64,000 bases of DNA from Psychromonas sp. psych-6C06 (GTDB lineage: Bacteria > Pseudomonadota > Gammaproteobacteria > Enterobacterales > Psychromonadaceae), in assembly GCF_002835465.1 (NCBI RefSeq), contig NZ_PIZM01000008.1, positions 124,001 through 188,000 on the forward strand. The letters are read 5' to 3'. This document shows, piece by piece, positions 26,830 through 44,505 of the stretch; positions within the stretch are counted from its first letter, which is position 1, and each line of letters starts with the position of its first letter. The notes beneath the pieces were generated by a model, which did not search any database, had not been told where the DNA came from, and saw only the letters and a list, made by a program, of their open reading frames with translations. Both the position numbers and the translations under genes were made by a program.

Positions 26830-27023
26830 TGTTATTTCCTAAACGGTGATATGAAAATCACCTTAAATTAGTTGTTTGTTCTTTTATTAAAACTTATCGT
26901 GATACCTTAAATGCTTAGGGCTAAGTCATTTAAGGCTAGATCAAGGCGAAAAAGCGCAGTTTAATGGTTTAAATGAGCATTTTTCAACGTAGAGATAGCC
27001 TTAAAGGACAACGACCTTAGTAT
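26830..27023 (-). promoter_or_regulatory. pfaC-pfaD spacer with long inverted repeat
   Basis: This is the only sizeable gap inside the pfa cluster. TTTAAGGCTA (26929-26938) is matched exactly in inverted form by TAGCCTTAAA (26996-27005), with CTAAG/CTTAG further out. The transcript could fold into a long hairpin between pfaC and pfaD. It may reduce read-through or protect one part of the message. Shared words with the MITE family (AAGGCGAAAA) leave a transposed repeat possible. Confidence 0.4.
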
Positions 27024-30000
27024 TTAAGCTTCGATGATGCTAAGAACAATATCCTTCACTTCATAGATGCGTAGGCCATCCTTAGACAGATTCGCATCCC
27101 CCACTAAACGCACCTCACTATCGGTTTTGATAATATCAGTAATATGGACATCTAAACTCATCTGTTTATTTAGCGGCGTAATTTGTCCGCGGTATTTCCA
27201 CACAACGTTAGTTAACGGGGCTTCAAAACGCGGGTTGTTAAAAGTTTTTCCTAAATCGTTTTTCAGGGCATAGGTTTGTAGCAATTCGATAATCGCTTCT
27301 ACGCCTAATGAGCCTGGCATCACCGGATCTTGATGGAAGTGATAACGGAAGAACCAATCACTCGCATCAATAGTACGTTCACCATAGATATAAGCGAGTG
27401 ACGCTTTACCACCACCTTCAACAATTGACACCGTATCGACAAAATTAAGTTGTCCGCCCGCTAAACGATAATGTGGCTTTGCAATGGGTGCTTTAAACAG
27501 TGATAAAGTCTTATCGGTAAGATCGATTTTTTCAACCTGAGCTGCAGGTGTATTATTATCGACAAACCATGCATTAGTTGTTTTGCCGTTATCGATACCC
27601 AATTGGTTCGCTAACGCATCCCCACCAAAGTAACCAAAAACAGCTTTACCTTTATAAAACGGCTCATCATCCACCAGCAAATCAAAGGTGAAACTCTGCA
27701 CGATCATACCACCTGCCATAGTGGTGCTTAATAACACCGATTTATTAACAATGGTTTTACCGCGTAGATCCACTTTTCTTAATAGCTCACCTTCACCATC
27801 TAAGTTTCTAAAGAAAAGATCCTTTTCAGGATAAACCAAGGTGGTGCCCATATAGCCTGAGATAAAGCCATTAGGTTGCAGTGCAATCTCCATGATTAAT
27901 GAATATGGCATCCAATTATCGACACTATTTTTAGTGAAGTACCATGCATCTGCAGGCACAAAATATTCCGCAATACAGCTGGCTGTTTTTTTAAGGTCTA
28001 AACGTTGCCCTTGCACATCAATCACTCGGGTAACAACTTGTAAATCACCACAGGGCGTTCTCGGCGGTATACGCCCTTTATAAACATCAAAGGCAGGACC
28101 AAAACAGTTAGAGATATTACCCGTTGCAAATTCAAACAGATGGTAAGGTGTAAATGGAAGGCTATCTGGCGTTCTATTTTGCCCTGCAACCATCGGAGCT
28201 TCAAAATGTTTGATTGGTGTCACGCCCTTCTCTTTCGGGGCATTAAAATCTGATTCAACACGCATTAATGGGCATTTTGCATCTTTAAAAGGTTGCACGC
28301 CGCGTTCATCGGTGATCAGGTGATTCTCCACCTCGTGAATCGCTTCCACAGGGATCTGCTCAACGTGACTTTCAAGCTCATTAAACGCAGACTCTACAGA
28401 TGATTCGACTAAACTTGTATTGGCAGTGGGTAATAGTTGTACGTTACTTGGTAATGTCACGGGATACGCTGAATCTTCATCCTGTTCTTTAATTTCCATA
28501 CACAGGTTTTTAAAGTCAACCACGGTTTTACCATCAAGAATAATATCGATGTTGGCCTTAATAAATGGACGTGGCGACATGCCCATCTCAACCACCTCTA
28601 AACGATAGGTTAAGGTATTAGTTTGCGGTAACACCTGCCCACGACAGCGTACAGTTTGTGGCTCTCCTTTCATTGGTTGGAAACGCGCGTTATTGACGGT
28701 GCCATTCATACCTAACCAAAGCATGTAAAACATTGCCACTTGCCCACAACCTTCTGACATTAACGAGCCCGCCATCACTTGATCGCCTTTAAAGTGACAT
28801 GGGAAATACCAGTGATCCGGCGCGAGATCTTTCTGCCCCTCAATAAGGCCGAGTCCCCAATGACCACCAGTAGGATCAACTTTAGTGATACGTTCAATCA
28901 TCAAGAATTTTTCAGATGAGAACTTCAGCGAAGGATTACGTCCTTGTTGATCATATTCAGGTCCAAAACATCCGGCGATATCACCATCTACTAGCTTCAT
29001 CATATCAGCATAGTTATACTGCGTTTTGCTGTTTTTAATCAGTGGTGTAAAGCTTGATTTTTTAGCATTCGCAAAAGCCGCTTTATCTTTATCGTTATGA
29101 ATAACGCCTTTACCGTCCGCTAACTCTTCATCGGTGAAGAACCCCGCACAGCCATTACGCATAATAAGCACTTTTTTATCGCCCACATAACAATCGTAGT
29201 GGAAGAAGAATAAAAGTTGCTCGCCATTTTTTGCATAGGAATCGATATGAATTTCATAGCGTAGTGTTTCACCACCAAAGGCCATATCTTCTAAAAAGGT
29301 TAATTCGCAATCGAGTAAACGATAGATTCGCTCACTTTTGTTTTGAAAGTCGATGCCGATATATGAGATAAGCATCAAATCACATTGACCCGATTCAACC
29401 GATACCGACCAAGGGATATGACCATCAATTAAAAACGGTGCGTCAACGGGAATATCATATTCCGTTGCCATGTATGATTTTTTATATTCGTTTACCTTGG
29501 CTTCAAGATCCGTCACACGGGTCACTAACAGGTAATCGGTCGTCGGGAGGCGAACGCGACGCGCATAACTGTCGATAATTCTATATTGTTCACCAAATAC
29601 CTTACTAATGTCGCCCTCTGCAAATTCCACTAAATCGGCGGTATCAAAGATAACTTGCTTGGGTTTATTAAAACGCTCTTCAAGTTGTAAAGCAGGATAG
29701 TGATATCCCGCCGGCCCTTTAATTGCAAAACCTGTTTCTACTTGTTCGGGCGCGAACGTTGCTTGATTAACGACAGATGAAGGCGCTTGTCCCGCTACTG
29801 ATTGTCCCGTTAACAATTGCGCTTGCAGTTTAATCAGTTTGGAAATTTGTTGCTCAGCGCCTTGTCGTGCGCGAATAAAGGCTTGGTGTGTTTGCGTTTG
29901 TTGTAAAATTTCACTGCTCGTTTCGCTGTTGATACTGTTTTTAGTCATGGTAACTTGCTCTGAAGAAGTGTGTGGCTTAATGGGCGATGTTGCCATTAGC

Positions 30001-32819
30001 GAAAGTGGTTGTTTAAGTGTAACAAGCGATAGGTCAATCCCATTATTCACAGGTGCCTTAACCTGCTTCATTTTATTAAACAGGGGGTTACCTTGGTGTT
30101 GCAAAATTGATTGTTCAATATCGATGCCACCTAGAACAATCGGTTTAATCAACGAAAAAGGCTTTTTACTGTTTGCATCATTGGCTTTAGTGATTAACTG
30201 ATATGGCTGTTTGGGTGCGCTTAAAATCAGATGTGCACAGCTCATATCTTTGCCCAGACCATTAACGGCGATTTTCTCTGCTATCCCTGTATTTAAATTA
30301 AGGGCCGATTTAATCAAACTTACCATCCCCGAGGCATTAAACAGATGACCTACTTGGCGTTTAACACTATCAATATTGGCGTTACTATAACATTGCGAAA
30401 AAGCCTGTATTTCCGCTTGATTATCCGCAATGAAACCACTGGCAAAGGCTTCTACCTGTTGAACTTGTTGTGGTTGAATCGCCGCTTGCTGACATGCTTG
30501 TTTTACGGCACGTTGTATTGCGTTGCTATCACTGCCACTGGCAAAGCTAATCGCATCAATCTGTGCATAACGGTTGTGCGATTCCTGTAACGCCGATTTT
30601 AATACTATCGCGCCCGCGCCCTCACCTACTGTCCAGCGATGATGATCCAGTATATTGTCTTGAATTTGCCCTTGAGGGTTTTCTTCTACTGTCCCGTAAC
30701 GCTGACGCAAACTAATGTTTTCAAAGGATCCCGCTAAATCAACGGCGGCTATCACAACCGCTTCTACATCGGACGTCGCAAACAGGTTTTGTGCTAGCTC
30801 TGTGCAACGGTATACCGAATTTTCTTCACTCGATACCGTGAACGCAGGGCCACTGAAATCCCAAAGTGCAGAGATACGTGATGCCATGATATTACCGATA
30901 AAACTCGTGTATTGGTTTAACTGCGCGGCACTGGCGATACTCTCTTTACAAATATTAATCAGCTCTGATTGTTCAGCGGCTGTTAAATGGATCCCCTGTT
31001 GCTCAAGACTTTGATCAATTTGCGTGCTTAAATTAACGCGCCCACGATACTGATGTAGGTCTAGCTCTAACCCCATTGCGACTAATACAGCAACATTAGC
31101 GCCCTCTTTTAAGCCCGCCTGTTGCACTGCATTATCAGCAACCTTCATCATCATAAGTTGCTGTGGGATCAAACAATCCTGAGGGTTAGGTGGTACTTTA
31201 AAGCGAAGAAAGTCGATATCAAACTGCTCTACATAACCCCCTTTAGGTGCATTGCTTAAACCCAGTGTTTGCTTGACGACACGGTTTTTCTCTATCCCTT
31301 TCCAGCGCTTTGCTGGTAATTCGCGGAAGGTATTGCCATTGTTATCAAGTAGCGTTTTAAAGTCAGCAAGATCACTAATATCTCCGACCATACAATCCAT
31401 GCCAACAATAGCCATCGGCGCAAGTGCTTTAACCGAATTGCTATTTGCTGTTAATAATGGCGTATTTCCCGCTTGTAAAACAAGGTGTGCGTTACTGCCA
31501 CCAAAACCGAAAACACTGACGCCCGCTGTTCGCGCTTTACCAGTCTGAGTTGGCCAATTAACCGTATCAATTGGCATCTGCTCACTGGTTAGAAAGGCTT
31601 GTTTGGTGTTAATGGCATTATTTAAACTAATGGTTGCCGGAATAACGCCTTCGTTCAGCGCATAAATCGCCTTAGTCACACCGGGCATGCCGGCCGCGGT
31701 TAACAGGTGACCTAAATTCGATTTAGCAGAGCCTAATAACGGCTTATGGTTATATTGGCTAAAGAAGGTTTCCATCGACGCCAGTTCGACCTTATCTCCC
31801 TTTGGCGTACCAGTTGCGTGACATTCAATATAATCAACCTCAGCTGGCGATATTTGCGCATCTTGGTAGGCACGTTGATAGGCAAGCACTTGGCCTTTAC
31901 TATTCGGGCTTAATACAAACTCTCCCTTACCATCGTTAGACAGTGCACCACCTTTGATTACCGCATGGATAGTATCGCCATCGCGCAGTGCGTCACTGTG
32001 GCGTTTTAGCACCATCATTCCCGCACCTTCTGCAGCAAATAGCCCTTGTGAGTCTTTATCAAAGGGGGCATGTTTATTGTTTGCTGGAAACGCTTGGAAA
32101 ATAGAGAATCCCATATTAACAAACATCGGATCAGCACCCGAAATCGCACCGGCGAGCATCATATCAGCGCGCCCGGTATGCAGGTAATCGCAGGCAAGTT
32201 TTATGCTATAACAGGAAGAAGCACAGGCAGCATCAAGTGAAAAGTGTGTCCCACCTAGCCCAGATGCCTTCGCTAATAAAGCGGAAGGGTAACCTGCAAC
32301 TAAGGCATTATCAGGGTTAATCGCTAACGGTTTTGTGAAGTTAGTTAACTGAACAGCATCGCCACTGAGCTGTTTCAGTGCATGTTCCACAACATGATAA
32401 TAAAAAGGCAAAAAGAGATGATTTGAGGTTTTTGTTGGAAATGACAAATTACCTAAAATTAGACCACAATCTTGCAGTGCATCACTGTTCCAGTAACCTG
32501 CATCTTTTAATGCTTGCTCAGTAACGTACAAGCCCCATTTATTAATATCATCTAATTGATGAAGGTAATCGCTATTGAGGCCTCGCGCGCTAAAAGGAGA
32601 AGCAACAAATTCAAACCCACGAATATAACCACCGTACATGCAGTAGAACTTATCGGTATCGCCCTTTTGACCAAGATATTTCGCAGGATCAACGCCCATC
32701 TCAGCAGCCGTGATCGGTGTTCTATTATCCTGTTTATTTAATAATTGCGTCCAAAACGCCTCTGGTTGACTTGAACCAGGAAACAGATTTGCAATACCAA
32801 CAATGGCAATGTTTTCCAT
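27024..32819 (-). CDS. pfaC: PfaC, PUFA synthase subunit (KS, chain-length factor, two FabA-like dehydratases)
   Basis: This 1931-residue multidomain subunit extends and desaturates the acyl chain. An N-terminal ketosynthase (about 1-450) has the nucleophile in DAACASSCYS (about C199) and the HATGTPKGD histidine. A second KS-like domain (about 465-890) lacks the active-site cysteine (the region reads SSEENSVYRCTEL) and so is the chain-length factor. Two FabA-like hot-dog dehydratases follow: WYFPCHFKGDQVMAGSL (about residue 1340) and WFFRYHFHQDPVMPGSL (about 1826), each with the catalytic histidine. The dehydratase/isomerase pair sets the cis double bonds. ATG 32819 (MENIAIVGIANLFPG) is preferred over 32831. 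pfaB ends 45 bases upstream. Confidence 0.97.
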   Translation of the reverse strand: MENIAIVGIANLFPGSSQPEAFWTQLLNKQDNRTPITAAEMGVDPAKYLGQKGDTDKFYCMYGGYIRGFEFVASPFSARGLNSDYLHQLDDINKWGLYVTEQALKDAGYWNSDALQDCGLILGNLSFPTKTSNHLFLPFYYHVVEHALKQLSGDAVQLTNFTKPLAINPDNALVAGYPSALLAKASGLGGTHFSLDAACASSCYSIKLACDYLHTGRADMMLAGAISGADPMFVNMGFSIFQAFPANNKHAPFDKDSQGLFAAEGAGMMVLKRHSDALRDGDTIHAVIKGGALSNDGKGEFVLSPNSKGQVLAYQRAYQDAQISPAEVDYIECHATGTPKGDKVELASMETFFSQYNHKPLLGSAKSNLGHLLTAAGMPGVTKAIYALNEGVIPATISLNNAINTKQAFLTSEQMPIDTVNWPTQTGKARTAGVSVFGFGGSNAHLVLQAGNTPLLTANSNSVKALAPMAIVGMDCMVGDISDLADFKTLLDNNGNTFRELPAKRWKGIEKNRVVKQTLGLSNAPKGGYVEQFDIDFLRFKVPPNPQDCLIPQQLMMMKVADNAVQQAGLKEGANVAVLVAMGLELDLHQYRGRVNLSTQIDQSLEQQGIHLTAAEQSELINICKESIASAAQLNQYTSFIGNIMASRISALWDFSGPAFTVSSEENSVYRCTELAQNLFATSDVEAVVIAAVDLAGSFENISLRQRYGTVEENPQGQIQDNILDHHRWTVGEGAGAIVLKSALQESHNRYAQIDAISFASGSDSNAIQRAVKQACQQAAIQPQQVQQVEAFASGFIADNQAEIQAFSQCYSNANIDSVKRQVGHLFNASGMVSLIKSALNLNTGIAEKIAVNGLGKDMSCAHLILSAPKQPYQLITKANDANSKKPFSLIKPIVLGGIDIEQSILQHQGNPLFNKMKQVKAPVNNGIDLSLVTLKQPLSLMATSPIKPHTSSEQVTMTKNSINSETSSEILQQTQTHQAFIRARQGAEQQISKLIKLQAQLLTGQSVAGQAPSSVVNQATFAPEQVETGFAIKGPAGYHYPALQLEERFNKPKQVIFDTADLVEFAEGDISKVFGEQYRIIDSYARRVRLPTTDYLLVTRVTDLEAKVNEYKKSYMATEYDIPVDAPFLIDGHIPWSVSVESGQCDLMLISYIGIDFQNKSERIYRLLDCELTFLEDMAFGGETLRYEIHIDSYAKNGEQLLFFFHYDCYVGDKKVLIMRNGCAGFFTDEELADGKGVIHNDKDKAAFANAKKSSFTPLIKNSKTQYNYADMMKLVDGDIAGCFGPEYDQQGRNPSLKFSSEKFLMIERITKVDPTGGHWGLGLIEGQKDLAPDHWYFPCHFKGDQVMAGSLMSEGCGQVAMFYMLWLGMNGTVNNARFQPMKGEPQTVRCRGQVLPQTNTLTYRLEVVEMGMSPRPFIKANIDIILDGKTVVDFKNLCMEIKEQDEDSAYPVTLPSNVQLLPTANTSLVESSVESAFNELESHVEQIPVEAIHEVENHLITDERGVQPFKDAKCPLMRVESDFNAPKEKGVTPIKHFEAPMVAGQNRTPDSLPFTPYHLFEFATGNISNCFGPAFDVYKGRIPPRTPCGDLQVVTRVIDVQGQRLDLKKTASCIAEYFVPADAWYFTKNSVDNWMPYSLIMEIALQPNGFISGYMGTTLVYPEKDLFFRNLDGEGELLRKVDLRGKTIVNKSVLLSTTMAGGMIVQSFTFDLLVDDEPFYKGKAVFGYFGGDALANQLGIDNGKTTNAWFVDNNTPAAQVEKIDLTDKTLSLFKAPIAKPHYRLAGGQLNFVDTVSIVEGGGKASLAYIYGERTIDASDWFFRYHFHQDPVMPGSLGVEAIIELLQTYALKNDLGKTFNNPRFEAPLTNVVWKYRGQITPLNKQMSLDVHITDIIKTDSEVRLVGDANLSKDGLRIYEVKDIVLSIIEA

Positions 32820-32863
32820 AAATATTCTCATTTTTCACGGCATAGGCCGTTTAATTTAATACG

Positions 32864-35311
32864 TTAATTAGAAACTTGCTGAATCAGTGAACCACTGAAA
32901 AAGCATTCAATATCGATAGCTACGCCAAAACTAATTAATTTGGCCACCGCACGTGCATAGGTCAACTGATCATCGGTGCCTTTGGCATTCACGGGCACGG
33001 TCAAATGTGCCTGTTCACGGCCTTTTAAAATCTTATCGGTCCAACTCGAAAGTGATCGTCCTGCGCCCATCTCAATAAATACCTGTGCCTGTTTATCCGC
33101 CAAAGCATCAATTAAACGCGGAAAATCAACGCGCTCACAGAGACATTTTGCAATGCTCACTGCAATCGCCTTTTGGTGTTGCGGAATCGGTAAGTAACAG
33201 GAGCTAGATATCATCTTGGTGCTAATACGCTCAGTCACTGGCATGTTATACAGCGCAAGCATATTGTCATACTCTTGATAAGCAGGCTCACTGTGAATGG
33301 CATTGGCCATATTAAGTGGCATTGCACGTACACCAAGGCGTTCGATCACTTGTAAACAATCCGCAGGAAAACCACCAATCACTAATGAATCGGGTGTATT
33401 GACAATGGTAATATAAACTCGCTCTGCAGGCTTAATGGCCGCATTCACTTGCTCTACACTGCCTTTAATGGTGTAGGTTTCCCATATTTGTTCAAACTCA
33501 CCGTCGTTAATATCTGGCAAATCCCAAAGCTTGCGAATCGCGCGAAGTTCACTGGAAAGTTGATGATTAAAGGTATCGGAGTTCGCCAAACGTTCACTCA
33601 TTAAGCCCGGATTATGCCAACAACCAAGCGCGGCAAACATGCTCACCTCTCCCATGCTGTAGCCACTGGCAAAATCAGCGTTAAGCTTAAAGACTTGTTC
33701 AAATATTTTAGTAAATACACAGGCGTAGCCGACACCACACTCAGCGATATTAGCTAAGCTATTACGTAGCTCAAGATCGCGTTGTTTTAGTGTTTTAAAA
33801 TCTAATGCCAGCACTGATCGCGGGTTTAATAATTCATCTTTTAACGACGCACTAATATCATCAGCCAAGCCAATGACGTGTGGATATATTGCTGGAAAAA
33901 GATGAAAAAGATCACGCCCAAGCCCAACATAAGTTGCACCGATGCCAGGATAAAGAAAGGCCGTTTTGGCGTTTTTATTCGGCACACTGCTAAAATAACT
34001 TCCCTTGGGTGTTTTCCAATCACCCTCATCGATAAAAGCTTGTTTAATGCCATTTAAGGCCAGTTTTATTTCGCGTGTTAACTCATCCCATGATTGGGCG
34101 ATGAATACAGCATGATAATTAAAATTGCCCTGTTTAAAGATTTGATAACACTGTTTAGCTTTATCTTTAAATTCACATTGTGGGTCATTAGTCTCCGCGC
34201 TTAATGCTTCTACACGTTGCAATAAGGTTTTTTGATCATCAGCCCCAACAATAAACAGTGCTTGTTTGCCATGAGACATAAAACCATTTGCGTGCACTGA
34301 TTGTCTGTCTTCGGCGTGTAAAACAACATGACTGTATGTTTGATCTGTTAACAAGCTATAGGCATAAGTTCGTGCATTTCCCCTGTTGGTAAACACTGGT
34401 GCGGCTTGATTAAACAGGTAAAAAGGCGCGCTTAACCACTTATCTAACAACGCTGTCTGTGGTGATTGCCAATCCTTAATAGCAGGACGATAGCGCTGTT
34501 GTAAGGCAATAACAGTGTGGATCAACCCCATAAGCTGCGAAACCATACCCGCCTCACCAAGCACACTTTTATGACAACTCACTGCGGTGGTTAATGTTTT
34601 ACAAGGTGTGTGATTGCACGATTCACTATAAGCGGTCAGTAATGCCTGTTGCTCAAAATCACACAACTGTTTATTTATACAGGACGAGACTTCAACACCA
34701 CTAATCTGATCACCAGTAAGCCCCGCTTTATTTAAGGAGTCTTTAATCACCGTTGCCATATTGGCATGGGTGCTAGTGCAACTATTATTGATGCTGGCGT
34801 AAACATAACTCTGCTGTTGCTGCGCAAACTTAGCACTGCTAAGTAATAAACAACTACTACCCTGTAACGAGGCATAACCGTTAAAACTGCTATCAAAACT
34901 GATACTGGCGTTATCGACATTCGTGACAGCAGTATTAAGTGAAGCGCTAATAATCAACACCGCAACATCATCGCAACAGATAATCTGTTCGCTACGCAAC
35001 AGTGCATCGCTGAGTGAATGAACAGACTCATAACTAAAGTGAGCCTGTGTAGCCCCTTCTGTCTGTTCAACACTCTCTTTCTCTTGTACAACTAAAACAG
35101 CAACCTGTTTAGCGGATAACTGATTTGCTAAGAGAACTGGGGTGGCACAGCGTTTACATAGCTCAGAGTAACTACCCGTTAAGGGCGTTGAGTTACTGAG
35201 CGCATCACCATAATACAAACTCGCTTCAACGTGATCGATACTGTGTAGATCATTATAGATCGCGTTAAAACCGATCACCGACAGCACAGTTTGCATCACT
35301 TTTACTGTCAT
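32864..35311 (-). CDS. pfaB: PfaB, PUFA synthase acyltransferase subunit
   Basis: This 815-residue subunit contains an acyltransferase domain in its second half. TAFLYPGIGATYVGLGRDLF opens it, and the nucleophile is in FASGYSMGEVSMF (about S555). The GRSLSSW segment comes near the C-terminus. The first half (about 1-330) is a degenerate ketosynthase-like region in which no active-site cysteine motif is evident. PfaB has been linked experimentally in other species to whether EPA or DHA is the end product; the product cannot be told here from sequence alone. Its ATG overlaps the pfaA stop (TAATG), so the two are translationally coupled. Confidence 0.95.
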   Translation of the reverse strand: MTVKVMQTVLSVIGFNAIYNDLHSIDHVEASLYYGDALSNSTPLTGSYSELCKRCATPVLLANQLSAKQVAVLVVQEKESVEQTEGATQAHFSYESVHSLSDALLRSEQIICCDDVAVLIISASLNTAVTNVDNASISFDSSFNGYASLQGSSCLLLSSAKFAQQQQSYVYASINNSCTSTHANMATVIKDSLNKAGLTGDQISGVEVSSCINKQLCDFEQQALLTAYSESCNHTPCKTLTTAVSCHKSVLGEAGMVSQLMGLIHTVIALQQRYRPAIKDWQSPQTALLDKWLSAPFYLFNQAAPVFTNRGNARTYAYSLLTDQTYSHVVLHAEDRQSVHANGFMSHGKQALFIVGADDQKTLLQRVEALSAETNDPQCEFKDKAKQCYQIFKQGNFNYHAVFIAQSWDELTREIKLALNGIKQAFIDEGDWKTPKGSYFSSVPNKNAKTAFLYPGIGATYVGLGRDLFHLFPAIYPHVIGLADDISASLKDELLNPRSVLALDFKTLKQRDLELRNSLANIAECGVGYACVFTKIFEQVFKLNADFASGYSMGEVSMFAALGCWHNPGLMSERLANSDTFNHQLSSELRAIRKLWDLPDINDGEFEQIWETYTIKGSVEQVNAAIKPAERVYITIVNTPDSLVIGGFPADCLQVIERLGVRAMPLNMANAIHSEPAYQEYDNMLALYNMPVTERISTKMISSSCYLPIPQHQKAIAVSIAKCLCERVDFPRLIDALADKQAQVFIEMGAGRSLSSWTDKILKGREQAHLTVPVNAKGTDDQLTYARAVAKLISFGVAIDIECFFSGSLIQQVSN

Positions 35312-38300
35312 TATTTAGCCACTTTTAAAAAGAGATCATTCAAGCTTTCACTCGCCGTCACCTGTGCACCAGTTACCTTTGCAAGGATAACCTTTTGTGC
35401 ATCAATCAGGCTTACATCAGCAATGACTTTTTTATTGCGTTTGTTAGCGGTCACCTTTAACTGCAAATAAAATGGCTGATCTACTGGTACTTCCCGATAA
35501 ACCGTCCACTGCAATGTAGCCGTTGGTAAACTACCAAGGCCTAATTGTTGTCGAACCCATACCAGTAACGCTTGATAAACCAGATCATTAGCAAAAACAT
35601 TATTCAGGGTAATATCAAACTCACCCTGTTGTTGCTGTACTGAACTTGGGATCAAGCAAGACAGTAATAACCCCTCTTCATCACAGTAATTAACGGCGTT
35701 TATACCCTGTAAGGTTTCACCATGAAATAGCGTGCCGTCTTCATATAAACAATGTGATTCAGTAACAAGTTCTGGCAGCTTTGAAGCATACAGTGGCGAA
35801 GTCGACCTTGTTTTTGACAGTGTTAAGGTTGCTGCGTAGTGAAAGGTGGTTTTATCCCCCTGTTCACTGGCAATTTTAACTTCCACCTTAAGTTGTTCAT
35901 TACTCTCTTCAAGTAAGTTAAGGTCAATCGCATAATCACTTGCCTGAGTGCCATCAAAGATGATGCCTTTAAACAGTTTATAGTTACTTAACCCCTGATA
36001 ATGATAATCAGGGTAAGTTGCTGTGACCGCCTCGACCATCCATGCAATAGCGCAAACCGTTGGAAACACCGCGTTATCACCAATTTGATGATCACTGAAA
36101 AAAGGATTGTTAGCCGTTAAAAGATGCTTAGTTAAACGACTAACTTGTGGCTTTTTTACAGCACTCTCCTGTGTATCAGCTTCACCGCCCATATCATTGC
36201 CCACTAAAATTTGTGCACAACGATTACTATCGGCCGCTAATTCACTAACCAATAACTGTGCCCCTGCATCTAAGGGAATGATGTACACACCACGATCATT
36301 AAACATACGTTTAAGTGCAGGTGTAACCATGCCACCATCCCAAGGACCCCAATTAAAACTTAACACTTGAGCAGAAGGATTAAGGGCCTTAAAGCGGTAT
36401 GCTGTTTTATTTAGGATATCATTGGCCATCGCATAATCGGACTGACCAAGGTTTCCGTAGAAACCAGCCGCCGATGAAAACAAAACCAGGTGTTTGATAT
36501 TTGCTTGCTCAGTGCAGCTTAATAGCGACAATAATCCCTCGATTTTAGTGTTATAAACCGCTTCCAATTCACTTAAGGATTTTTGCTCGATTAATTTATC
36601 CGCTAATACGCCTGCGCCATGAATTAGCCCAGTAATACCTCCCCACAGATCCGTGATGGGTGATACCGCATCTTGAACGCTTTGACTATTGGTCACGTCG
36701 GCACTCACATATTGCGCCAAGCCACCAGCAGCCTCAATTGCCAGTAAGGTTTGTGTGATCTCGCGATTGGCAATGATGGGTTTGATGAAATTCGTCACTG
36801 CAATAGGCGTTGGCTTTTCGCCCGATGCGATCAAGTGCTGCATCGCAGCTTTTTTCAGTTCACCTTCATCGCTAATACCCTGCGCCCAACTTGGCTCATT
36901 GTCATCATATTGAGAGCGACCTAATAAGATAAATTTAGATTGGTAAGTTTTCGCTAAACGGATCACACAATGCGCGGTAACGCCTTTTGCCCCACCACTA
37001 ACTAAAAACAGTGAGTTTTCATCGATGCTATTACCCGCCTGAAGCGCGTAACTGTCAGTTTGCTCAGCGATAAGTGTTAGGCGACCATTTGTATTAAAGC
37101 CGATTTCTACTGGCGATGCTTGTGTTGCGTTTAACTCATCAAATACAATGTTTGCCACTTTATCGGCACCAAACTTACTGGCGACATCAATCGCACGACA
37201 GAATACTGATGGCCACTCATGGCTGAGTGTTTTCACTAATCCCGTTAAACCAGTTTGTACTAAATCACTGTTTAACTCGTTATTGTCAACTCCAAAAGCG
37301 CCACCTTGGCGTGTTAACACTAAAAACGATGAACGGGCATCACTATTATTTGTTTCATTACTTGCAAGGCCGGTTAGCTTGGCAAGTAAAAATGCAAGTT
37401 GTAAACCTTGTTGACTAGATTGCGGATATTCGATGCCATCAATCGCCGTTTTACCTTGCAGATAAATCACCGCATGCCAAACATTTTGTGTGGCTAAAAT
37501 GGCAACTAACTCTTTCTCATCAAGTTGTTCAAGTGCAACACGATTGATCGCCTTAGAAAACGTTTTAGAGGTTGTACTCTCTACCCAAGCTGGAGTTAAT
37601 ACAGTCACAGCCCAGCCCTGTTGATTTAGTTTTTCAGCAAGACGTACTGCGCTTCCTTCCCCATCGTCGACCAATAATAGGTTTTCGCCATTTAAACTTT
37701 TAACGTCTGTTTCAACGGCATCAAGATGTTTAACGACAACTATACTGCTTGGCGCTGGGGTAAAATCATTATTGATTTCACTCACTACTGGTGTTTCAGT
37801 TGATGTTGTTGCAGCTTGCTCAATATTTGCCTTAACTGGCATCGCACCGCTAGCTTTCTCTTTCATGTAAGCCACGATTTCACCTAAAGTGCGAAGCTCA
37901 GCTAAATCCTCTGGATTTAACTCAGGTAGATCAGTGATTTCATCTTGCACCGAGCCTAAAATTTCAACACGTTTGATTGAATCGATCCCTAAATCCGCTT
38001 CCATATCCATGTTAAGCTCTAGCATCTCCGTTGGGTAACCAGTTTTATCGGCAACCACGGTCATCATTACGGTTTGGATTTTATCTAAATCAATTGCAGT
38101 CGCTGCTGGTGTTAGCGTTGGCGCAGTTTGCATCGCACCACTGGCTTTCTCTTTCATGTAAGCCACAATTTCACCTAAGGTGCGAAGCTCGGCTAAATCC
38201 TCTGGATTTAACTCTGGAAGATCGGTGATTTCATCTTGTACTGCTCCCAAGATCTCAACACGTTTGATCGAATCGATCCCTAAATCCGCTTCCATGTCCA

Positions 38301-41300
38301 TGCTAAGTTCTAGCATCTCCGTTGGGTAACCCGTTTTATCGGCAACAACTGACATCATCACGGTTTGGATTTTATCTAAATCGATTGCAGTCGCTACAGG
38401 TGCTGGAGTTAGCGTTGCCCCTGTTGGCGAAGTTTGCATAGCACCGCTAGCTTTCTCTTTCATGTAAGCGACGATTTCACCTAAGGTGCGAAGCTCGGCT
38501 AAATCCTCTGGATTTAACTCTGGAAGATCGGTGATTTCATCTTGTACTGCTCCCAAGATCTCAACACGTTTGATTGAATCGATCCCTAAATCGGCTTCCA
38601 TATCCATGCTCAGTTCAAGCATCTCCGTTGGATAACCGGTTTTATCGGCAACCACGGTCATCATCACATTTTGGATTTTATCTAAATCAATTGAAGCCGC
38701 GGTTTGTGGTGCTATTGGTGATATTGGTGCAGTCGCTTGAGCTAACACCGGTGAAGCAACCTCTGCTTTAGATTGCATATAGCTAACAATTTCACCTAGC
38801 GTACGAAGCTCAGCTAAATCCTCTGGATTTAACTCTGGAAGATCGGTGATTTCATCTTGTACCGCGCCCAGAATCTCAACGCGTTTGATTGAATCGATAC
38901 CTAAATCGGCTTCCATATCCATGCTAAGCTCAAGCATCTCCGTTGGGTAACCGGTTTTATCGGCAACCACGGTCATCATCACGGTTTGGATTTTATCTAA
39001 ATCGATTGAAGCCGCGGTTTGTGGTGCTATTGGTGATATTGGTGCAGCCGCTTGAACTAACACCGGTGAAGCAACCTCTGCTTTTGATTGCATATAGTTA
39101 ACAATTTCACCTAAGGTACGAAGCTCAGCTAAATCCTCTGGATTTAACTCAGGAAGATCGGTGATTTCATCTTGCACCGCGCCCAGAATCTCAACGCGTT
39201 TGATTGAATCGATACCTAAATCGGCTTCCATATCCATGCTAAGCTCTAGCATCTCCGTTGGATAACCGGTTTTATCGGCCACAACTTCCATCATCACATT
39301 TTGGATTTTATCTAAATCAATTGAAGCCGTGCTTTGTGATGCTATTGGAGCAGTCGCTTGAACTAACACCGGTGAAGCAACCTCTGCTTTAGATTGCATA
39401 TAGTTAACAATTTCACCTAAGGTACGAAGCTCGGCTAAATCCTCTGGATTTAACTCAGGTAGATCTGATATTTCATCTTGCACCGCGCCTAGAATTTCAA
39501 CGCGTTTAATTGAATCGATCCCTAAATCGGCTTCCATGTCCATGCTAAGCTCTAGCATCTCCGTTGGATAACCGGTTTTATCGGCCACAACTTTCATCAT
39601 CACATTTTGGATTTTATCTAAATCGATTGCAGCCGTGCTTTGTGGTGCTATTGGTGATATTGGTGCAGCCGCTTGAGCTAACACCGGTGAAGCAACCTCT
39701 GCTTTAGATTGCATATAACTGACAATTTCACCTAAGGTGCGAAGCTCAGCTAAATCCTCTGGATTTAACTCAGGAAGATCAGATACTTCATCTTGCACCG
39801 CGCCCAGAATCTCAACGCGTTTAATTGAATCGATCCCTAAATCGGCTTCCATGTCCATGCTCAGTTCAAGCATCTCCGTTGGATAACCGGTTTTATCGGC
39901 CACAACTTCCATCATCACATTTTGGATTTTATCTACATTAACGGCCGGTGTAGGTGTTACCTTTGTAGTAACAGGGACAACTTCAACGGTTGCTTGTGAT
40001 TGCATCGACTGTTGCTTCACTGGCTGTGCAACTTGCACAGGCTCAGCAGTTTTAACTGCAGTTTTCGGCTCAATATTACCAGTAACTTGAGGTTGTACCG
40101 CATGGCTAGGTGGCGTTGTTGCAGTAACAGTTGTAGTAACATCAGCAGAGAGGCCATCAAGCATCTTACTCATGTTTTCTGTTTGACTGTTTAAATAAGT
40201 TTCATGAACACGCAATGTTTCCGACTGGAAATCATGGTACATGCTCAGTGTTTTATCTAACCCTGACGGTAACTGTGTTTCACCCGTTTGCGCAGCTAAT
40301 ACTTCTTGGAATGTTTTGGCGTACTCCTGAGGCCCCTGCATATAAGCTTGATGCACATCGAGTAACTGTGATTGATGATTGACAAAATTTTCGACACTAC
40401 GCTCAATCGCATTAGCCGTTTCGACAGCGTTAGGTTGGTTTGAACCCTGAGGTTGGCCAGCACTTTTATCTACATAAACGATTTTTTCAACTTCGACGAT
40501 CTTCTCAACGATCACCTCTTTAATCACCTCTTTGACCTGTGCAGGTGCGCTGTTAGTAATGGTCCAATCATCGTTTAACGCTTCATCAAATGCTTTTTTA
40601 GTTTTCGGGCTCACATAAGCGGCACCTGTTAACTTCATCGCTAGTGGTGATTTTTTCGGTGCGACTAACGGGCGTTGCTGCGCTGAGTAGGGGTCAATGT
40701 TGTCAAGTTGTATGCCTAATACAGCCATCTCAACGGCAGCTAAACGTAGTTGCTGATCGGCTGATTTTTTCGCATTCGCATTGATTGCAATGCTGATAAC
40801 ATCACTTTTATCTTGCAAAATGTTATCCACTAAACGTGTTAGTACGTTTTTAGGGCCAAACTCAACAAAAATACGTCCACCCGCATCATAAAGGTTTTCT
40901 ATCTGCTCATTAAAATGTACTGACTGTAAAATATGGTTTTTCAGTGCAGCTTGGATTTCAACGCCATTATTTGGATGTGCCTTCGCAGTACCATTAGCAA
41001 ACACAGGAATAGTAGGCGAATTAAATTCAACCGTATCAATCGCATCGGCAAACGGCTTTTGTGCATGCCCCACTAACTCGGTATGGAAAGCTGCTGAAAC
41101 TGGCAACTTAACCACTTTGTAACCCTTGTTTTGTAACTGCTCAACCGCCACTTCAACTTGTGCGGTCACACCCGCAATCACAACCTGATTATTGGAGTTG
41201 TAATTAGCAATCGAAACGCCTTCAATCGCTTCAATATCTTTAGCAACATCATTTGGCGCACCAACAACAGCAGCCATAGTACCTGCATCGAAGTTTTCAT

Positions 41301-43494
41301 CTTCAGGCGCAGCCATTGCAGCACCTCGGCTACGTGCAAGCGAAAGGTAATCTTGCTCAGCAAGAACGCCCGCGGCCCACAGTGCAGTTAACTCACCGAA
41401 ACTATGTCCTGCAGCAAAGTCCGCTTTTAGGCCCGCTTGTTTAAAAATATTAAACAAACCAGCACTAAAGGTGCCGATAGCCGGTTGTGCATGCTGCGTT
41501 AAACGTAACTGTGTTTCTTGATCTTTTCGTTGATCAGCAGAGAAAACAGGGATCGGGAAAACCGTTGCAGATAATTGCGCTTGGTTTTTATCAGTAAACT
41601 GTTTGTCCATTGCTGCGCTGGTGGCAAGCATATCAGGGAAGTTACAAGTTAAATCGCGTCCCATATTGACATATTGCGAGCCTTGTCCAGAAAACAGCGC
41701 AACGACTTTGCCCTGTGTCTCGAGCCCTGTTTCACGGTAATAGATACCCGTTGGTTTGCTCCACGCTTTAGCATCAGAAGCTAAAGCTTTAATAATCTGC
41801 TCAATAGCCTTGATCGCTTGTTGCGCATTTTTTGCCACAAAACCGCAACGTGCTAATTCGGCATGCGGCGTTTTAAATGGATTTTCTGCTAATAAACTAT
41901 TAAATGCATAAGCTTGTAGATCTGCCTCTACTGACAGGTTTGATAGATATTGCGTTAATCGCGATTGTAATGATGATTTATCCTTCGCGCTGATAACAAC
42001 GGTTTGTGCAACTTCATTCAGACGATAAGCTTCGCTGTGCGTCGCTTTGTACTCTTCTAAAACAAAGTGGAAGTTAGTACCACCAAAGCCAAATGAACTG
42101 ATACCTGCACGGCGTTTAACACCATCGGCACGTGGCATCCAAGGACGTGTTTCGTTATTCACATACAGTGGTGTATTTTCTATCTCTAAATTAGGATTAG
42201 GTTTATCAACATTAATCGTTGCCGGTAATACCTTGTGATGCAGTGCAAGTGCGGCTTTAATCAGACCCGCTGTGCCTGCAGCGGCTTTTGTATGACCCAC
42301 CTGTGACTTGACTGAGCCTAATGCAATATGTTGTTTTTGTTCGTTATTTTCACTAAAGAGCGTATTTAAACCACTAAACTCGGCAGCATCACCGGCTTTA
42401 GTTCCCGTACCATGCGCTTCGATTAAACCACAGGTTAACGGATCAAAACCCGCATCTTGGTAAGCACGTTTAAGCGCTTTCACTTGACCCGATGGACGCG
42501 GTGCATAGATTGATTTAAAGCGACCATCGGAAGAGCTACCGATACCTTTGATAAGCGCATAGATTTTATCGCCATCACGCTCTGCATCTTCAAGACGCTT
42601 TAAGGCAATCATGCCAACACCTTCACCGATCATCATCCCCTTTGAGTTTTCATCAAAAGGACGAATATCATCACCATCGGTAAATGCAGGTGTTTTCGCA
42701 AAAGACATGTACATAAACGGCGAGTTATCACAACAAACGCCACCAGAAATCATCATCTCTGAACGATGCTCTAGCAGGTCTGAAACCGCCATTTTGATGG
42801 CAGCCAGTGATCCAGCACAGGCTGCATCTACGACGCAGTTTGTACCACCAAAATCAAAACGGTTAGCGATACGACCGGCAATCACATTACCTAACATCCC
42901 CGGAAATGAGTTTTCTTCCCATGGAATAAATGCTTTTTTGTATTTGTCGATAATCACCTGACGATCGCTTTCACTCACCCCTGAGGCTTTAAGCACTTTA
43001 TCAAGTACAGGCCCCTGTAAACGAGAGGTTAACGGGCCAATCTGTTTTTGTCCGCCACCAACACCTAAGGTAATACCGATTTTATCGCGATCATAAGCAT
43101 TTTCATCGCTAATACCCGCATCGGCTAACACATCACGCGCCACAACCAGCGACATCAACTGAGTAATATCGGTTAACTCTAAAATATTAGGTGGTAAGCC
43201 AAACTCCATTGGGTCAAAGTCGATTTCAGGCAAGAAACCACCACGTTTACAATAGGTTTTATCAGCAGCTTTTTTATCACTAGAGTAATAATCATCAATC
43301 GCCCAACGATCTTCAGGCACATCTTGAATGCCATTCACGGACTCAACAATATTGTCCCAGAATTGGTCTAGGTTTTTCGTCTCGGCAAATACCGACGCCA
43401 TACCAACAATGGCGATAGGACAATCTTGAAGTCGAGAATTCAATTTTTTATCTTGCTCTGTTTCAATGACATCAAGATGTTGTTCGTTAGACAT
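35311..43494 (-). CDS. pfaA: PfaA, PUFA synthase with KS-AT-7xACP-KR-DH-like domains
   Basis: This 2727-residue multidomain synthase is the core of the pathway. A ketosynthase (about 25-470) has the nucleophile in VVDAACAGSLAAIK (about C226). A malonyl acyltransferase (about 595-890) has GHSFGE. A helical linker with KEVIKEVIVEKIVEVEKIV (about 990) leads to seven tandem ACPs, each with a GIDSIKR phosphopantetheine serine (first about residue 1223, last about 1839). A ketoreductase follows with the Rossmann motif SGGAKGVTAHC (about 2165) and the catalytic Ser/Tyr of FSSAAGFYGNLGQSDYAM. A C-terminal PKS-type dehydratase-like domain has DHQIGDNAVFP (about 2465). The start at ATG 43494 follows TTGGAGTAACAAC; the frame opens 30 bases earlier inside pfaR. 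It is translationally coupled to pfaB. Confidence 0.98.
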   Translation of the reverse strand: MSNEQHLDVIETEQDKKLNSRLQDCPIAIVGMASVFAETKNLDQFWDNIVESVNGIQDVPEDRWAIDDYYSSDKKAADKTYCKRGGFLPEIDFDPMEFGLPPNILELTDITQLMSLVVARDVLADAGISDENAYDRDKIGITLGVGGGQKQIGPLTSRLQGPVLDKVLKASGVSESDRQVIIDKYKKAFIPWEENSFPGMLGNVIAGRIANRFDFGGTNCVVDAACAGSLAAIKMAVSDLLEHRSEMMISGGVCCDNSPFMYMSFAKTPAFTDGDDIRPFDENSKGMMIGEGVGMIALKRLEDAERDGDKIYALIKGIGSSSDGRFKSIYAPRPSGQVKALKRAYQDAGFDPLTCGLIEAHGTGTKAGDAAEFSGLNTLFSENNEQKQHIALGSVKSQVGHTKAAAGTAGLIKAALALHHKVLPATINVDKPNPNLEIENTPLYVNNETRPWMPRADGVKRRAGISSFGFGGTNFHFVLEEYKATHSEAYRLNEVAQTVVISAKDKSSLQSRLTQYLSNLSVEADLQAYAFNSLLAENPFKTPHAELARCGFVAKNAQQAIKAIEQIIKALASDAKAWSKPTGIYYRETGLETQGKVVALFSGQGSQYVNMGRDLTCNFPDMLATSAAMDKQFTDKNQAQLSATVFPIPVFSADQRKDQETQLRLTQHAQPAIGTFSAGLFNIFKQAGLKADFAAGHSFGELTALWAAGVLAEQDYLSLARSRGAAMAAPEDENFDAGTMAAVVGAPNDVAKDIEAIEGVSIANYNSNNQVVIAGVTAQVEVAVEQLQNKGYKVVKLPVSAAFHTELVGHAQKPFADAIDTVEFNSPTIPVFANGTAKAHPNNGVEIQAALKNHILQSVHFNEQIENLYDAGGRIFVEFGPKNVLTRLVDNILQDKSDVISIAINANAKKSADQQLRLAAVEMAVLGIQLDNIDPYSAQQRPLVAPKKSPLAMKLTGAAYVSPKTKKAFDEALNDDWTITNSAPAQVKEVIKEVIVEKIVEVEKIVYVDKSAGQPQGSNQPNAVETANAIERSVENFVNHQSQLLDVHQAYMQGPQEYAKTFQEVLAAQTGETQLPSGLDKTLSMYHDFQSETLRVHETYLNSQTENMSKMLDGLSADVTTTVTATTPPSHAVQPQVTGNIEPKTAVKTAEPVQVAQPVKQQSMQSQATVEVVPVTTKVTPTPAVNVDKIQNVMMEVVADKTGYPTEMLELSMDMEADLGIDSIKRVEILGAVQDEVSDLPELNPEDLAELRTLGEIVSYMQSKAEVASPVLAQAAAPISPIAPQSTAAIDLDKIQNVMMKVVADKTGYPTEMLELSMDMEADLGIDSIKRVEILGAVQDEISDLPELNPEDLAELRTLGEIVNYMQSKAEVASPVLVQATAPIASQSTASIDLDKIQNVMMEVVADKTGYPTEMLELSMDMEADLGIDSIKRVEILGAVQDEITDLPELNPEDLAELRTLGEIVNYMQSKAEVASPVLVQAAAPISPIAPQTAASIDLDKIQTVMMTVVADKTGYPTEMLELSMDMEADLGIDSIKRVEILGAVQDEITDLPELNPEDLAELRTLGEIVSYMQSKAEVASPVLAQATAPISPIAPQTAASIDLDKIQNVMMTVVADKTGYPTEMLELSMDMEADLGIDSIKRVEILGAVQDEITDLPELNPEDLAELRTLGEIVAYMKEKASGAMQTSPTGATLTPAPVATAIDLDKIQTVMMSVVADKTGYPTEMLELSMDMEADLGIDSIKRVEILGAVQDEITDLPELNPEDLAELRTLGEIVAYMKEKASGAMQTAPTLTPAATAIDLDKIQTVMMTVVADKTGYPTEMLELNMDMEADLGIDSIKRVEILGSVQDEITDLPELNPEDLAELRTLGEIVAYMKEKASGAMPVKANIEQAATTSTETPVVSEINNDFTPAPSSIVVVKHLDAVETDVKSLNGENLLLVDDGEGSAVRLAEKLNQQGWAVTVLTPAWVESTTSKTFSKAINRVALEQLDEKELVAILATQNVWHAVIYLQGKTAIDGIEYPQSSQQGLQLAFLLAKLTGLASNETNNSDARSSFLVLTRQGGAFGVDNNELNSDLVQTGLTGLVKTLSHEWPSVFCRAIDVASKFGADKVANIVFDELNATQASPVEIGFNTNGRLTLIAEQTDSYALQAGNSIDENSLFLVSGGAKGVTAHCVIRLAKTYQSKFILLGRSQYDDNEPSWAQGISDEGELKKAAMQHLIASGEKPTPIAVTNFIKPIIANREITQTLLAIEAAGGLAQYVSADVTNSQSVQDAVSPITDLWGGITGLIHGAGVLADKLIEQKSLSELEAVYNTKIEGLLSLLSCTEQANIKHLVLFSSAAGFYGNLGQSDYAMANDILNKTAYRFKALNPSAQVLSFNWGPWDGGMVTPALKRMFNDRGVYIIPLDAGAQLLVSELAADSNRCAQILVGNDMGGEADTQESAVKKPQVSRLTKHLLTANNPFFSDHQIGDNAVFPTVCAIAWMVEAVTATYPDYHYQGLSNYKLFKGIIFDGTQASDYAIDLNLLEESNEQLKVEVKIASEQGDKTTFHYAATLTLSKTRSTSPLYASKLPELVTESHCLYEDGTLFHGETLQGINAVNYCDEEGLLLSCLIPSSVQQQQGEFDITLNNVFANDLVYQALLVWVRQQLGLGSLPTATLQWTVYREVPVDQPFYLQLKVTANKRNKKVIADVSLIDAQKVILAKVTGAQVTASESLNDLFLKVAK
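37845..39945 (-). repeat. Seven tandem acyl-carrier-protein units within pfaA
   Basis: The serine codons of the seven GIDSIKR motifs start at 37978, 38269, 38575, 38890, 39205, 39511 and 39826, spaced 291, 306, 315, 315, 306 and 315 bases. The repeats are nearly identical in protein and largely in DNA. The linkers fall into two kinds: the four N-terminal units end YMQSKAEVASPVL, the three C-terminal ones end YMKEKASGAM. Confidence 0.95.
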
Positions 43495-43507
43495 GTTGTT
43501 ACTCCAA

Positions 43508-44332
43508 TTAAGATTTGCTTGCATTTTCAGTTAAATTTTCATCATTAGACTTATCTTCTAATAACCGAAAACGACTTAAAAATTCGTTATAATTTTTTAC
43601 CAGCACACGGCGAATAGGAAACGGTGCTTGGCTTAATACATGGCGAAGGTAGCGCCCTGCGGCTTGATAATCATCATCACTATAAAGGTCGACATAAACC
43701 CACTGGCTATTGAGGTCGTGTGCCATTAATAGCGAGGTTTTGCTGTTCGGGCCTGCAGCTAATATCTCTGGTAATTTAATCAAATACACTTGTATGACAT
43801 CTAGCGTCGTTAAACGCTCAGTGGGCGCATCCCCCATCTGCTCACGCATCTGATTTAAAAAATCGCTCATCGCCTGTGGCGACACCACCGAATTAATCAC
43901 CTCGTGAGACAAGCTTTCTTCGATGGCCACCTGCGCATAACTTGCATCTAATGTCGATTCATCAAAGTCTTGCATCTCCGACAAACGTGATACACCGTGA
44001 CGTTTTAAACAGCGCTGTAATCCAGCGCGTGAAGCATTGGGGTTGATATACGTTTTGCAGACATTGAGTAACTCATCTAACGATAACTTAAGTCGCAGTC
44101 GCAACTGCACCACCGCATATTGCTGTGCTTCACTTAGCGTTGTGTTGAGTTGTTTAGGAAGATGAGAAATATCGTCGGTAGAACTGCGTTTGCGCCACTT
44201 TCTCACCGTAGATTCAGAAACTTTAAGTAAACGAGCAAGGACTGCGGTCGCGAGGTCTGACTCGTGGATAAATGCGCGCATCTCGGGTGTAGTGGTTGCA
44301 TTCTTATGTACATTTTTAGGTTGTTTGGGCAT
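43508..44332 (-). CDS. pfaR: PfaR, pfa cluster regulator with transposase-derived architecture
   Basis: This 274-residue protein stands first in the pfa cluster, where the activator PfaR is found in Shewanella and relatives. An N-terminal helix-turn-helix (about 22-50, ARLLKVSESTVRKWRKR) is followed by a second helical block (about 62-118). Residues 173-255 read like the first part of an IS481-type DDE integrase core: TTLDVIQVYLIKLPEI, LLMAHDLNSQWVYVDLYSDD, HVLSQAPFPIRRVLVKNYNEF. The first aspartate remains (D178), but the TDNG aspartate position is K246, and the protein ends before the glutamate. It therefore should bind DNA but not cut it. The stop lies 13 bases before the pfaA start. Confidence 0.85.
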   Translation of the reverse strand: MPKQPKNVHKNATTTPEMRAFIHESDLATAVLARLLKVSESTVRKWRKRSSTDDISHLPKQLNTTLSEAQQYAVVQLRLRLKLSLDELLNVCKTYINPNASRAGLQRCLKRHGVSRLSEMQDFDESTLDASYAQVAIEESLSHEVINSVVSPQAMSDFLNQMREQMGDAPTERLTTLDVIQVYLIKLPEILAAGPNSKTSLLMAHDLNSQWVYVDLYSDDDYQAAGRYLRHVLSQAPFPIRRVLVKNYNEFLSRFRLLEDKSNDENLTENASKS

Positions 44333-44375
44333 TCAAACTCAGCTGTATTAAGTTAATCGCACTCATGAATGAAGC

Positions 44376-44404
44376 AATATACACAGGTATCACACCCTAC
44401 ACAA
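44376..44404 (-). promoter_or_regulatory. Candidate sigma-70 promoter of the pfa operon
   Basis: On the minus strand TTGTGT (44399-44404) and TATATT (44376-44381) are separated by exactly 17 bases, about 45 bases before the pfaR start. The spacer holds GGTGTGATACC, a short GGT/ACC inverted repeat that could be an operator. Confidence 0.45.
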
Positions 44405-44470
44405 TCACCCGATACTTTTATTTTTGTTTTATTTATCAACAAACTGTTTTTTAATTTTAATAACTAAAAA

Positions 44471-44505
44471 GCAAAAAAAAGGCGAACCATAATGGGTTCG
44501 CCTTA
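44471..44505 (-). terminator. Rho-independent terminator upstream of the pfa operon
   Basis: On the minus strand AAGGCGAACC pairs with GGTTCGCCTT around six bases and is followed by a run of eight T. It ends the transcript of the 165-residue gene and isolates pfaR. Confidence 0.9.

Follow-up and report, generated by a model that had tools for sequence, protein, structure and literature searches.

PfaR of the pfa operon is a domesticated IS481 transposase with a putative operator resembling a transposon end

PfaR, the regulator encoded at the head of the pfa operon of Psychromonas sp. psych-6C06, is a domesticated, catalytically dead IS481 transposase. To describe its origin, we analysed computationally a 64,000-nucleotide stretch of this genome (contig NZ_PIZM01000008.1, positions 124,001 to 188,000; hereafter the window) together with genomes of related bacteria. 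What is new here is a conserved block in the pfaR promoter that resembles the terminal inverted repeat (TIR) of IS481 elements. We consider it probable that the left-end TIR of the ancestral element was retained as the putative operator of PfaR's own operon, with PfaR likely acting as an activator.

The likeness of PfaR to transposases has been noted before. In the passages on PfaR in PMC4744452 (2016), the protein models on MuA transposase, its catalytic residues are not conserved and it is thought to be a regulator. The main idea of an initial annotation of the window is therefore not new, because these passages already describe a non-catalytic, transposase-like regulator. They name MuA, not IS481, and describe neither an operator nor a TIR. 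Our literature search found no link of PfaR to IS481 ancestry or to a TIR-derived operator, and PMC8174602 and PMC6463001 do not mention PfaR.

The pfaR gene occupies positions 43508–44332 on the minus strand and encodes 274 aa, as initially annotated and as listed among the open reading frames (ORFs). According to the ORF list, it is followed on the same strand by four ORFs that we take to be pfaA, pfaB, pfaC and pfaD. The pfaA ORF spans 35311–43524, with a likely start codon at 43494, 13 nt past the pfaR stop. The presumed remainder of the PUFA synthase operon lies at 25234–35311 and comprises pfaB (32864–35311), pfaC (27024–32831) and pfaD (25234–26829), all on the minus strand. The product of pfaR consists of an HTH domain (residues 16–48), a second helical DNA-binding domain (68–112), a linker insertion (~118–175) and a truncated RNase H-like core (181–254). 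Both transposase-like segments quoted in the initial annotation are present in the translation.

Profile and sequence comparisons place PfaR in the IS481 family. The NCBIfam IS481 transposase profile matches PfaR with E = 1.6e-24, aligning residues 22–256 with profile positions 9–208 of 284, at a score of 86.9 bits that lies below the 224-bit cut-off for full transposases. Pfam returned weak matches, mainly to HTH families, the best of which (E = 3.3e-05) was under the cut-off. Identity to four intact transposases is 35–37% and spans both DNA-binding domains and the core. An alignment of 11 PfaRs with these 4 intact proteins runs through the N-terminal DNA-binding domains, a linker found only in PfaR, and then the catalytic core. 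IS481-like genes of other genomes reach at most 51% identity to PfaR over ~110 N-terminal residues. A tblastn search of plasmids with PfaR as query retrieved 1338 records; among the 40 listed, the annotated features are IS481 transposases except for one of DDE type, and the annotated matches among those listed include ISGlo3, ISRme14 and ISKpn27. A sequence search of the PDB with PfaR gave chance-level matches only, and an initial scan of the genome contigs with the single PfaR protein as query gave no match.

An AlphaFold2 model built from 43 PfaRs (mean pLDDT 78.3, pTM 0.62) shows the domain order proposed at the outset, namely an HTH, a second helical block and a partial RNase H-like core. 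The HTH helices fall in residues 16–48 and further helices in 68–112; the core has strands at 181–186, 200–206 and 211–217, followed by helices at 221–235 and 238–254. The integrase core has a fourth strand where the model shows helix 238–254. In the structural comparison with transposase and DDE folds that the initial annotation had called for, transposases and integrases are among the best matches. The first four Foldseek matches in the PDB are chains of the IstA (IS21) transposase; their E values (1.7e-3 to 9.3e-3) all exceed 0.001 and their TM-scores are low (0.12–0.19). VIA-align superposed residues 6–112 on the Pax5 paired domain (Z 6.6), 9–113 on the DNA-binding domain of Tc3 transposase (Z 6.6), 13–257 on IstA (Z 6.3, rmsd 16) and 175–249 on residues 56–134 of HIV-1 integrase (Z 5.0, rmsd 3.6, 62 aligned), Z values that are all middling by the tool's own note. 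The model stops short of the Glu-bearing part of the catalytic core, and the integrase matches end near residue 134–145.

Intact IS481 transposases carry a catalytic triad of Asp 1 in VHVDVKYLP, Asp 2 in LTDNGKEF and Glu in NGMVERFN. In the alignment with four intact transposases, Asp 1 falls on Y183 in the PfaR segment IQVYLIKLP; the Y183 codon, computed from the ORF start at 44332, lies at 43784–43786 on the minus strand. Asp 2 falls on K246, whose codon, counted from the same start, lies at 43595–43597 on the minus strand. The replacement of the TDNG aspartate by K246, as first annotated, is borne out by the alignment of 104 PfaRs. The first catalytic aspartate had in turn been described as kept at D178. 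Residue 178 is indeed Asp (LTTLDVIQV), but the catalytic column is that of Y183, and alignment with the intact transposases rules out D178 as a retained catalytic residue.

Loss of both aspartates is general. An alignment of PfaR proteins, proposed with the initial annotation as a check on catalytic loss, has no D at the D1 or D2 column in any of 104 distinct PfaRs; in the same alignment, 8/8 intact transposases have D, D and E. At D1 the residue is K, V, E, S, Y, N, A, R, M or L; at D2 it is R, G, A, K, E, S or N. The conserved PfaR chain ends before the third catalytic column and the Glu segment is gone, in agreement with what the single sequence had indicated. The letters that MAFFT places in this column are assorted tail residues (E in 17/104, a gap in 39/104), and the tails vary in length and sequence.

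One aspartate of the core, D206, is kept in 103 of the 104 distinct PfaRs. It sits in the segment LLMAHDLNSQWVY and corresponds to the Asp of AIDRATRW in intact transposases. The catalytic triad of retroviral integrases is D64, D116 and E152. When the ISGlo3 transposase is aligned with SIV integrase, its TDN and NGMVE are matched with TDN and HGVVE of the retroviral protein, and its AIDRATRW Asp aligns with the His of VAVHVAS; D206 is therefore non-catalytic. With Y183 at the position of Asp 1, it follows that PfaR lacks all three catalytic residues and not just two. The core is thus more eroded than initially claimed, and the general reading as a domesticated, dead IS481-type transposase is supported: the IS481 profile covers residues 22–256, and we obtained neither a structure prediction without an RNase H fold nor a best match of residues 173–255 in an unrelated family.

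PfaR is present in 22 of 24 Psychromonas genomes. Across the order, 57 of 295 genomes have matches at E ≤ 1e-5, which include transposases and a second dead IS481 family described below. A scan for relatives retained the best 80 of 146, and these come from Psychromonas, Colwellia, Pseudoalteromonas, Shewanella, Parashewanella, some metagenome-assembled genomes and other gammaproteobacteria. Among these best 80 of 146, pfaR immediately precedes pfaA, in the same orientation, in 79 loci; in the 80th the contig ends. The 29 PfaRs in an unrooted tree of 59 sequences form one clade with support 100/100; lacking a root, the tree does not single out an element as closest to PfaR. The only IS481 match in the genome of the window is pfaR itself, and pfaR does not show the several copies or varying positions expected of a mobile IS481 element. 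Contig-end pieces aside, its frames are long and open across the listed loci, and 43 sequences share 52 invariant columns.

Three genomes stand apart. One Psychromonas genome (G010, 79% complete) is without PfaR and without pfaA. In the other Psychromonas genome without PfaR, G019, pfaA is present (L261, G019:C184:1-3000), but the preceding 1.4 kb contains neither a PfaR frame nor a strong operator site; this is possibly a natural loss of pfaR and its operator, or else a rearranged contig. In genome G130, locus L062 (2515–3420, minus strand) is an eroded 301-aa IS481-like ORF without catalytic residues, located away from pfaA and on a long branch.

Upstream of pfaR, a conserved block that forms the promoter and putative operator, GTATCGGGTGATTGTGTAGGGTGTGATACCTGTGTATATT, occupies positions 44376–44415 on the minus strand. 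A search for inverted repeats at 44340–44470 had been suggested with the initial annotation, and this block with its inverted arms is what that region holds. The presumed fossil TIR motif GTATCGGGTGATTG (44402–44415, minus strand) differs by one mismatch from the IS481-element end pattern GTCYCGGRTGATTG. It is overlapped by the predicted −35 hexamer TTGTGT (44399–44404, minus strand), which is followed after 17 nt by the predicted −10 hexamer TATATT (44376–44381, minus strand). A second arm, GATAC (44387–44391, minus strand), is inverted relative to GTATC at 44411–44415; flanking the −35, these arms may provide a second half-site, between −35 and −10. A terminator-like hairpin (44479–44504, minus strand) separates the preceding gene from the block.

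The operator consensus is GT[ACT][TC]CGGGTGATT, and the commonest form of the block is GT[ACT][TC]C[GA]GGTGATTGT. The block is ungapped from Psychromonas to Shewanella, with a TTGTRT −35, a 17-nt spacing and mostly TATATT or TAATCT as −10, and its conserved part reaches upstream of the −35. Fifteen columns are invariant in 44/44 sequences, some of them fixed by the picking pattern itself. The second arm, GATAC or GAAAC, has a mean complementarity to the first arm of 3.1 of 5, the highest among 25 offsets compared. GTATC/GAAAC and GTATC/GATAC are the commonest arm pairs, and AAACC stands one base off in many other sequences.

Some loci deviate from this pattern. Family f12 (L047, L048, L050 and L052) has a weaker form of the block, and no block is recognisable in L031 and L070, which represent one locus of one genome. 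The search pattern had no match in L031, L050, L052, L054, L070, L135 and L140; L050 and L052 are CATTGT/CGTTGT variants, L135 and L140 a one-letter variant, and L054 lies at a contig end. The operator model was built from every second of 88 sequences, with L029, L032, L051 and L134 excluded beforehand. In the 24 Psychromonas genomes, the block model found one strong site (E ≤ 8.4e-8) in 22, each at pfaR, where 11 of the 22 sequences had themselves entered the model. No second full-block site was found in these 24 genomes below E = 0.015.

The TIR of the closest intact IS481 elements is GTCCCGGATGATT. The pfaR block is alike and in the same orientation, has the −35 inside it and has lost the TGT tip. 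Inverted end pairs around intact IS481 genes yield TGTCNGGTCCCGGATGATT; inverted repeats of this kind give TGTCAGGTCCCGGATGATTCC as the ISGlo3 end and TGTCGTGTCTCGGATGATTCATTG as the ISRme14 end.

Element-end pairs were found by complementarity, and 13 of 31 rows were then chosen with the pfaR motif already known. The excluded rows are four copies of elements already used (L177, L184, L186 and L217), seven with another end type such as TGTTTGATCCCGG (L176, L199, L200, L201, L203, L204 and L205) and seven without a convincing pair (L079, L080, L170, L175, L188, L191 and L193). L059 had two tied end pairs, of which the one equal to that of its near-copy L058 was taken. One element-end model contains 21 ends of 11 copies. 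The matrix for the location test contains 25 distinct ends of 13 element copies, with the first four columns removed.

The location test scanned both strands of 350-nt upstream regions. Of 102 distinct regions, 94 had a located block and were counted; the other 8 were not. In 89 of these 94 regions, from related genomes and hence non-independent observations, the operator is the top match of the element-end matrix, on the right strand and in register. Column-permuted matrices achieved this in a mean of 0.60 and a maximum of 51 regions, and none of 400 reached 89. Direct comparison of the operator matrix with that of the element ends gave a similarity of 7.03; the highest value among 20000 permutations was 6.60. 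L032 and L051, where the pattern chose a nearer, probably spurious site, were left out of the operator matrix for this comparison.

When whole loci were scanned with the TIR matrix, the top match fell at the operator in 66 of 100 loci, many of which are from the same genomes; several of the top matches elsewhere peak near the pfaA start, as read by eye. Against per-region shuffles, which discriminated less sharply than the location test, 55 of 102 upstream regions pass the 99th percentile and none exceeds the highest of 2040. In the window, a 14-nt TIR pattern matches with one mismatch, and the chance expectation for matches with at most two mismatches is 0.45. When the full 24-nt TIR, tip included, was used as a covariance model, the pfaR site was listed in one of 12 genomes, at E = 2.25 and rank second. 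Of 40 genomes of the genus Shewanella, 29 match a 13-nt TIR pattern one or more times, with 42 matches in total versus 14 for the reversed control; a match upstream of pfaR was confirmed in G028, G184 and G194, and G184 has two others.

The block also differs from intact ends. The distance from the TIR start to a conserved His codon is 95–131 nt in 13 element copies. The equivalent distance is 91–124 nt in 22 of 92 pfaR loci, one of which (L032) was mispicked; over all 92 loci the median is 195.5 nt and the maximum 423 nt, so that the block mostly lies farther away than in the elements. The TGT tip is present in 25/26 element ends versus 1/92 pfaR loci, the third letter of the Psychromonas operator (GTATC) is absent from the element ends used, and the −10 of the pfaR promoter was not seen in transposon left ends (ISGlo3, read by eye). 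A scan of 101 regions near the pfaR 3′ end for a right-end TIR yielded weak matches only (best 11.4), none of them convincing, and the left end is therefore not provable by a pair. In place of paired TIRs with TGT tips, pfaR has the left, inner TIR-like part only.

Inverted TIR-matrix matches of 4.6–11.4 occur at the pfaR stop in L143, L038, L053, L144 and L145, roughly at the place of the right end in intact elements. These Shewanella-type loci make up five of the nine best right-end matches, which may be relics of a right end or chance. Elsewhere, in L169 (G438), a 222-aa IS481-like frame is preceded by TGTCATATTTCGGGTGATTGTATAG, the core of the pfaR operator plus a TGT tip.

A second dead IS481 protein, with frames of 273–311 aa, was assigned from the match lists to six of the 295 genomes of the order, which belong to two other families: L061, L063, L064 and L065 (family f18), and L057 and L060 (family f9). 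In the five members scanned (L057, L060, L061, L063 and L065), the NCBIfam IS481 profile matches with E values of 1e-9 to 1.3e-15. Pfam identifies PTS IIA, PTS IIB and an M17 peptidase as neighbours in L057, and PTS EIIC and Asparaginase_2 in L064; like neighbour genes in the other four loci were recognised by eye from their first residues. In the tree of 59 sequences, this second protein sits on long branches and is not part of the PfaR clade. The three closest members (L063–L065) have a TIR-like sequence, AATCTCANNNGATT, 32–42 nt upstream of the MEIKLH start codon; among the TIR-matrix matches of each locus it ranks top in L065 and fourth in L063, and stands outside the four listed for L064. 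These few sequences suggest a parallel, independent domestication as an operon regulator. Tentatively, and at slightly under an even chance, IS481 transposases may repeatedly have become local operon regulators by combining their DNA-binding half with their own end as operator, PfaR and the second family being cases of this.

IS481 descent could be true and the block nonetheless be an ordinary promoter, serving RNA polymerase and another regulator and resembling a TIR by chance or convergence. In keeping with this, the block is partly promoter-like (TTGTRT, 17 nt, TATATT or TAATCT), the full TIR model gave no genome-wide rank, and the per-region shuffles are only moderately exceeded. We nevertheless regard it as unlikely, given a likeness that exceeds permuted matrices, conservation that runs upstream of the −35 and a block oriented like a transposon left end; moreover, the one Psychromonas genome with pfaA and without a PfaR match is also without a strong site. 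It is very improbable that PfaR is a functionless, decaying insertion-sequence remnant that stands before pfaA by chance. PfaR does lack the catalytic residues and the C-terminal third, as such a remnant might, but the long open frames, the 52 invariant columns in 43 sequences, the constant synteny and the conserved upstream block all speak against decay, as does a paper title that names PfaR a positive regulator (Wei et al. 2023).

Could PfaR instead be a still active transposase of a slow, immobile-looking element? D206, in 103/104 PfaRs, and the presence of both DNA-binding domains would fit, but a catalytic Asp is found in 0/104, no right TIR is convincing, the TGT tip occurs in 1/92 loci and the genome of the window holds a single copy, which makes this reading barely credible. 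Barring some unknown mode of catalysis, the alignment rejects an active mobile element. As a further alternative, PfaR might be a conventional HTH regulator with a sensor domain and a mere likeness to transposases, which would explain why Pfam finds mainly HTH families (best E = 3.3e-05, under the cut-off). Against this, the IS481 profile covers residues 22–256 including the core, the alignment with intact transposases continues through the core, and the best structure matches include transposases and integrases; we give such a regulator a very small chance.

Our preferred reading, in which PfaR and its operator both derive from an IS481 element, would start from a single insertion of such an element beside the pfa cluster in a gammaproteobacterial ancestor. 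The transposase would have kept both N-terminal DNA-binding domains, lost its three catalytic residues and its C-terminal third, and gained the linker. The left end of the element would also have been kept, its inner TIR becoming the operator that now holds the −35 of the pfaR–pfaABCD promoter. The TGT tip, presumably needed by the transposase for cutting, would have been lost; we read the absence of TGT next to an inner TIR as loss of the cutting part and retention of the binding part. From the likeness to element ends, we infer that the operator descends from a TIR rather than having converged on it. PfaR would then bind this fossil TIR and thereby control its own operon. Activation is the most likely mode of control, since it is suggested by a poor −35 (TTGTRT) with a regulator placed over it, and Wei et al. 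(2023) name PfaR a positive regulator in their title.

Such a history offers a route by which an operon could gain a private switch in one step, with a transposase and its own end recruited together. Since a transposase recognises its own end, and with it the promoter located in that end, loss of catalysis would leave a working regulator–operator pair. For marine bacteria, the block is a 40-bp candidate target for the control of omega-3 fatty acid synthesis. The combination of a dead transposase and a fossil end within one promoter could serve as a search rule for further switches.

PfaR can be compared with several known systems. In Colwellia psychrerythraea 34H and Shewanella putrefaciens W3-18-1, the same named gene stands before pfaABCD. 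The transposases of ISGlo3, ISRme14 and ISKpn27 resemble PfaR in the two DNA-binding domains and, as far as the second catalytic motif, in the RNase H-like core. With lengths of 321–326 aa and D, D and E in place, they differ from PfaR, which has none of the three, is shorter and carries the linker insertion. Paired ends were read for ISGlo3 and ISRme14, and these also match the pfaR operator. In insertion sequences, a transposase bound at the left end commonly controls the promoter there. This autoregulation through the left inverted repeat, in which a transposase on its own end controls a local promoter, is the circuit proposed for PfaR, except that here it would serve a fatty acid synthase operon and that the element is immobile. 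The TldR proteins, in which a nuclease has been lost, offer another parallel. They are described in PMC13418256 as TnpB-derived, RNA-guided transcription factors and, by that description, resemble PfaR in being transposon-derived proteins retained as regulators. TldR belongs to another protein family and is guided by RNA, whereas PfaR is proposed to bind an old transposon end.
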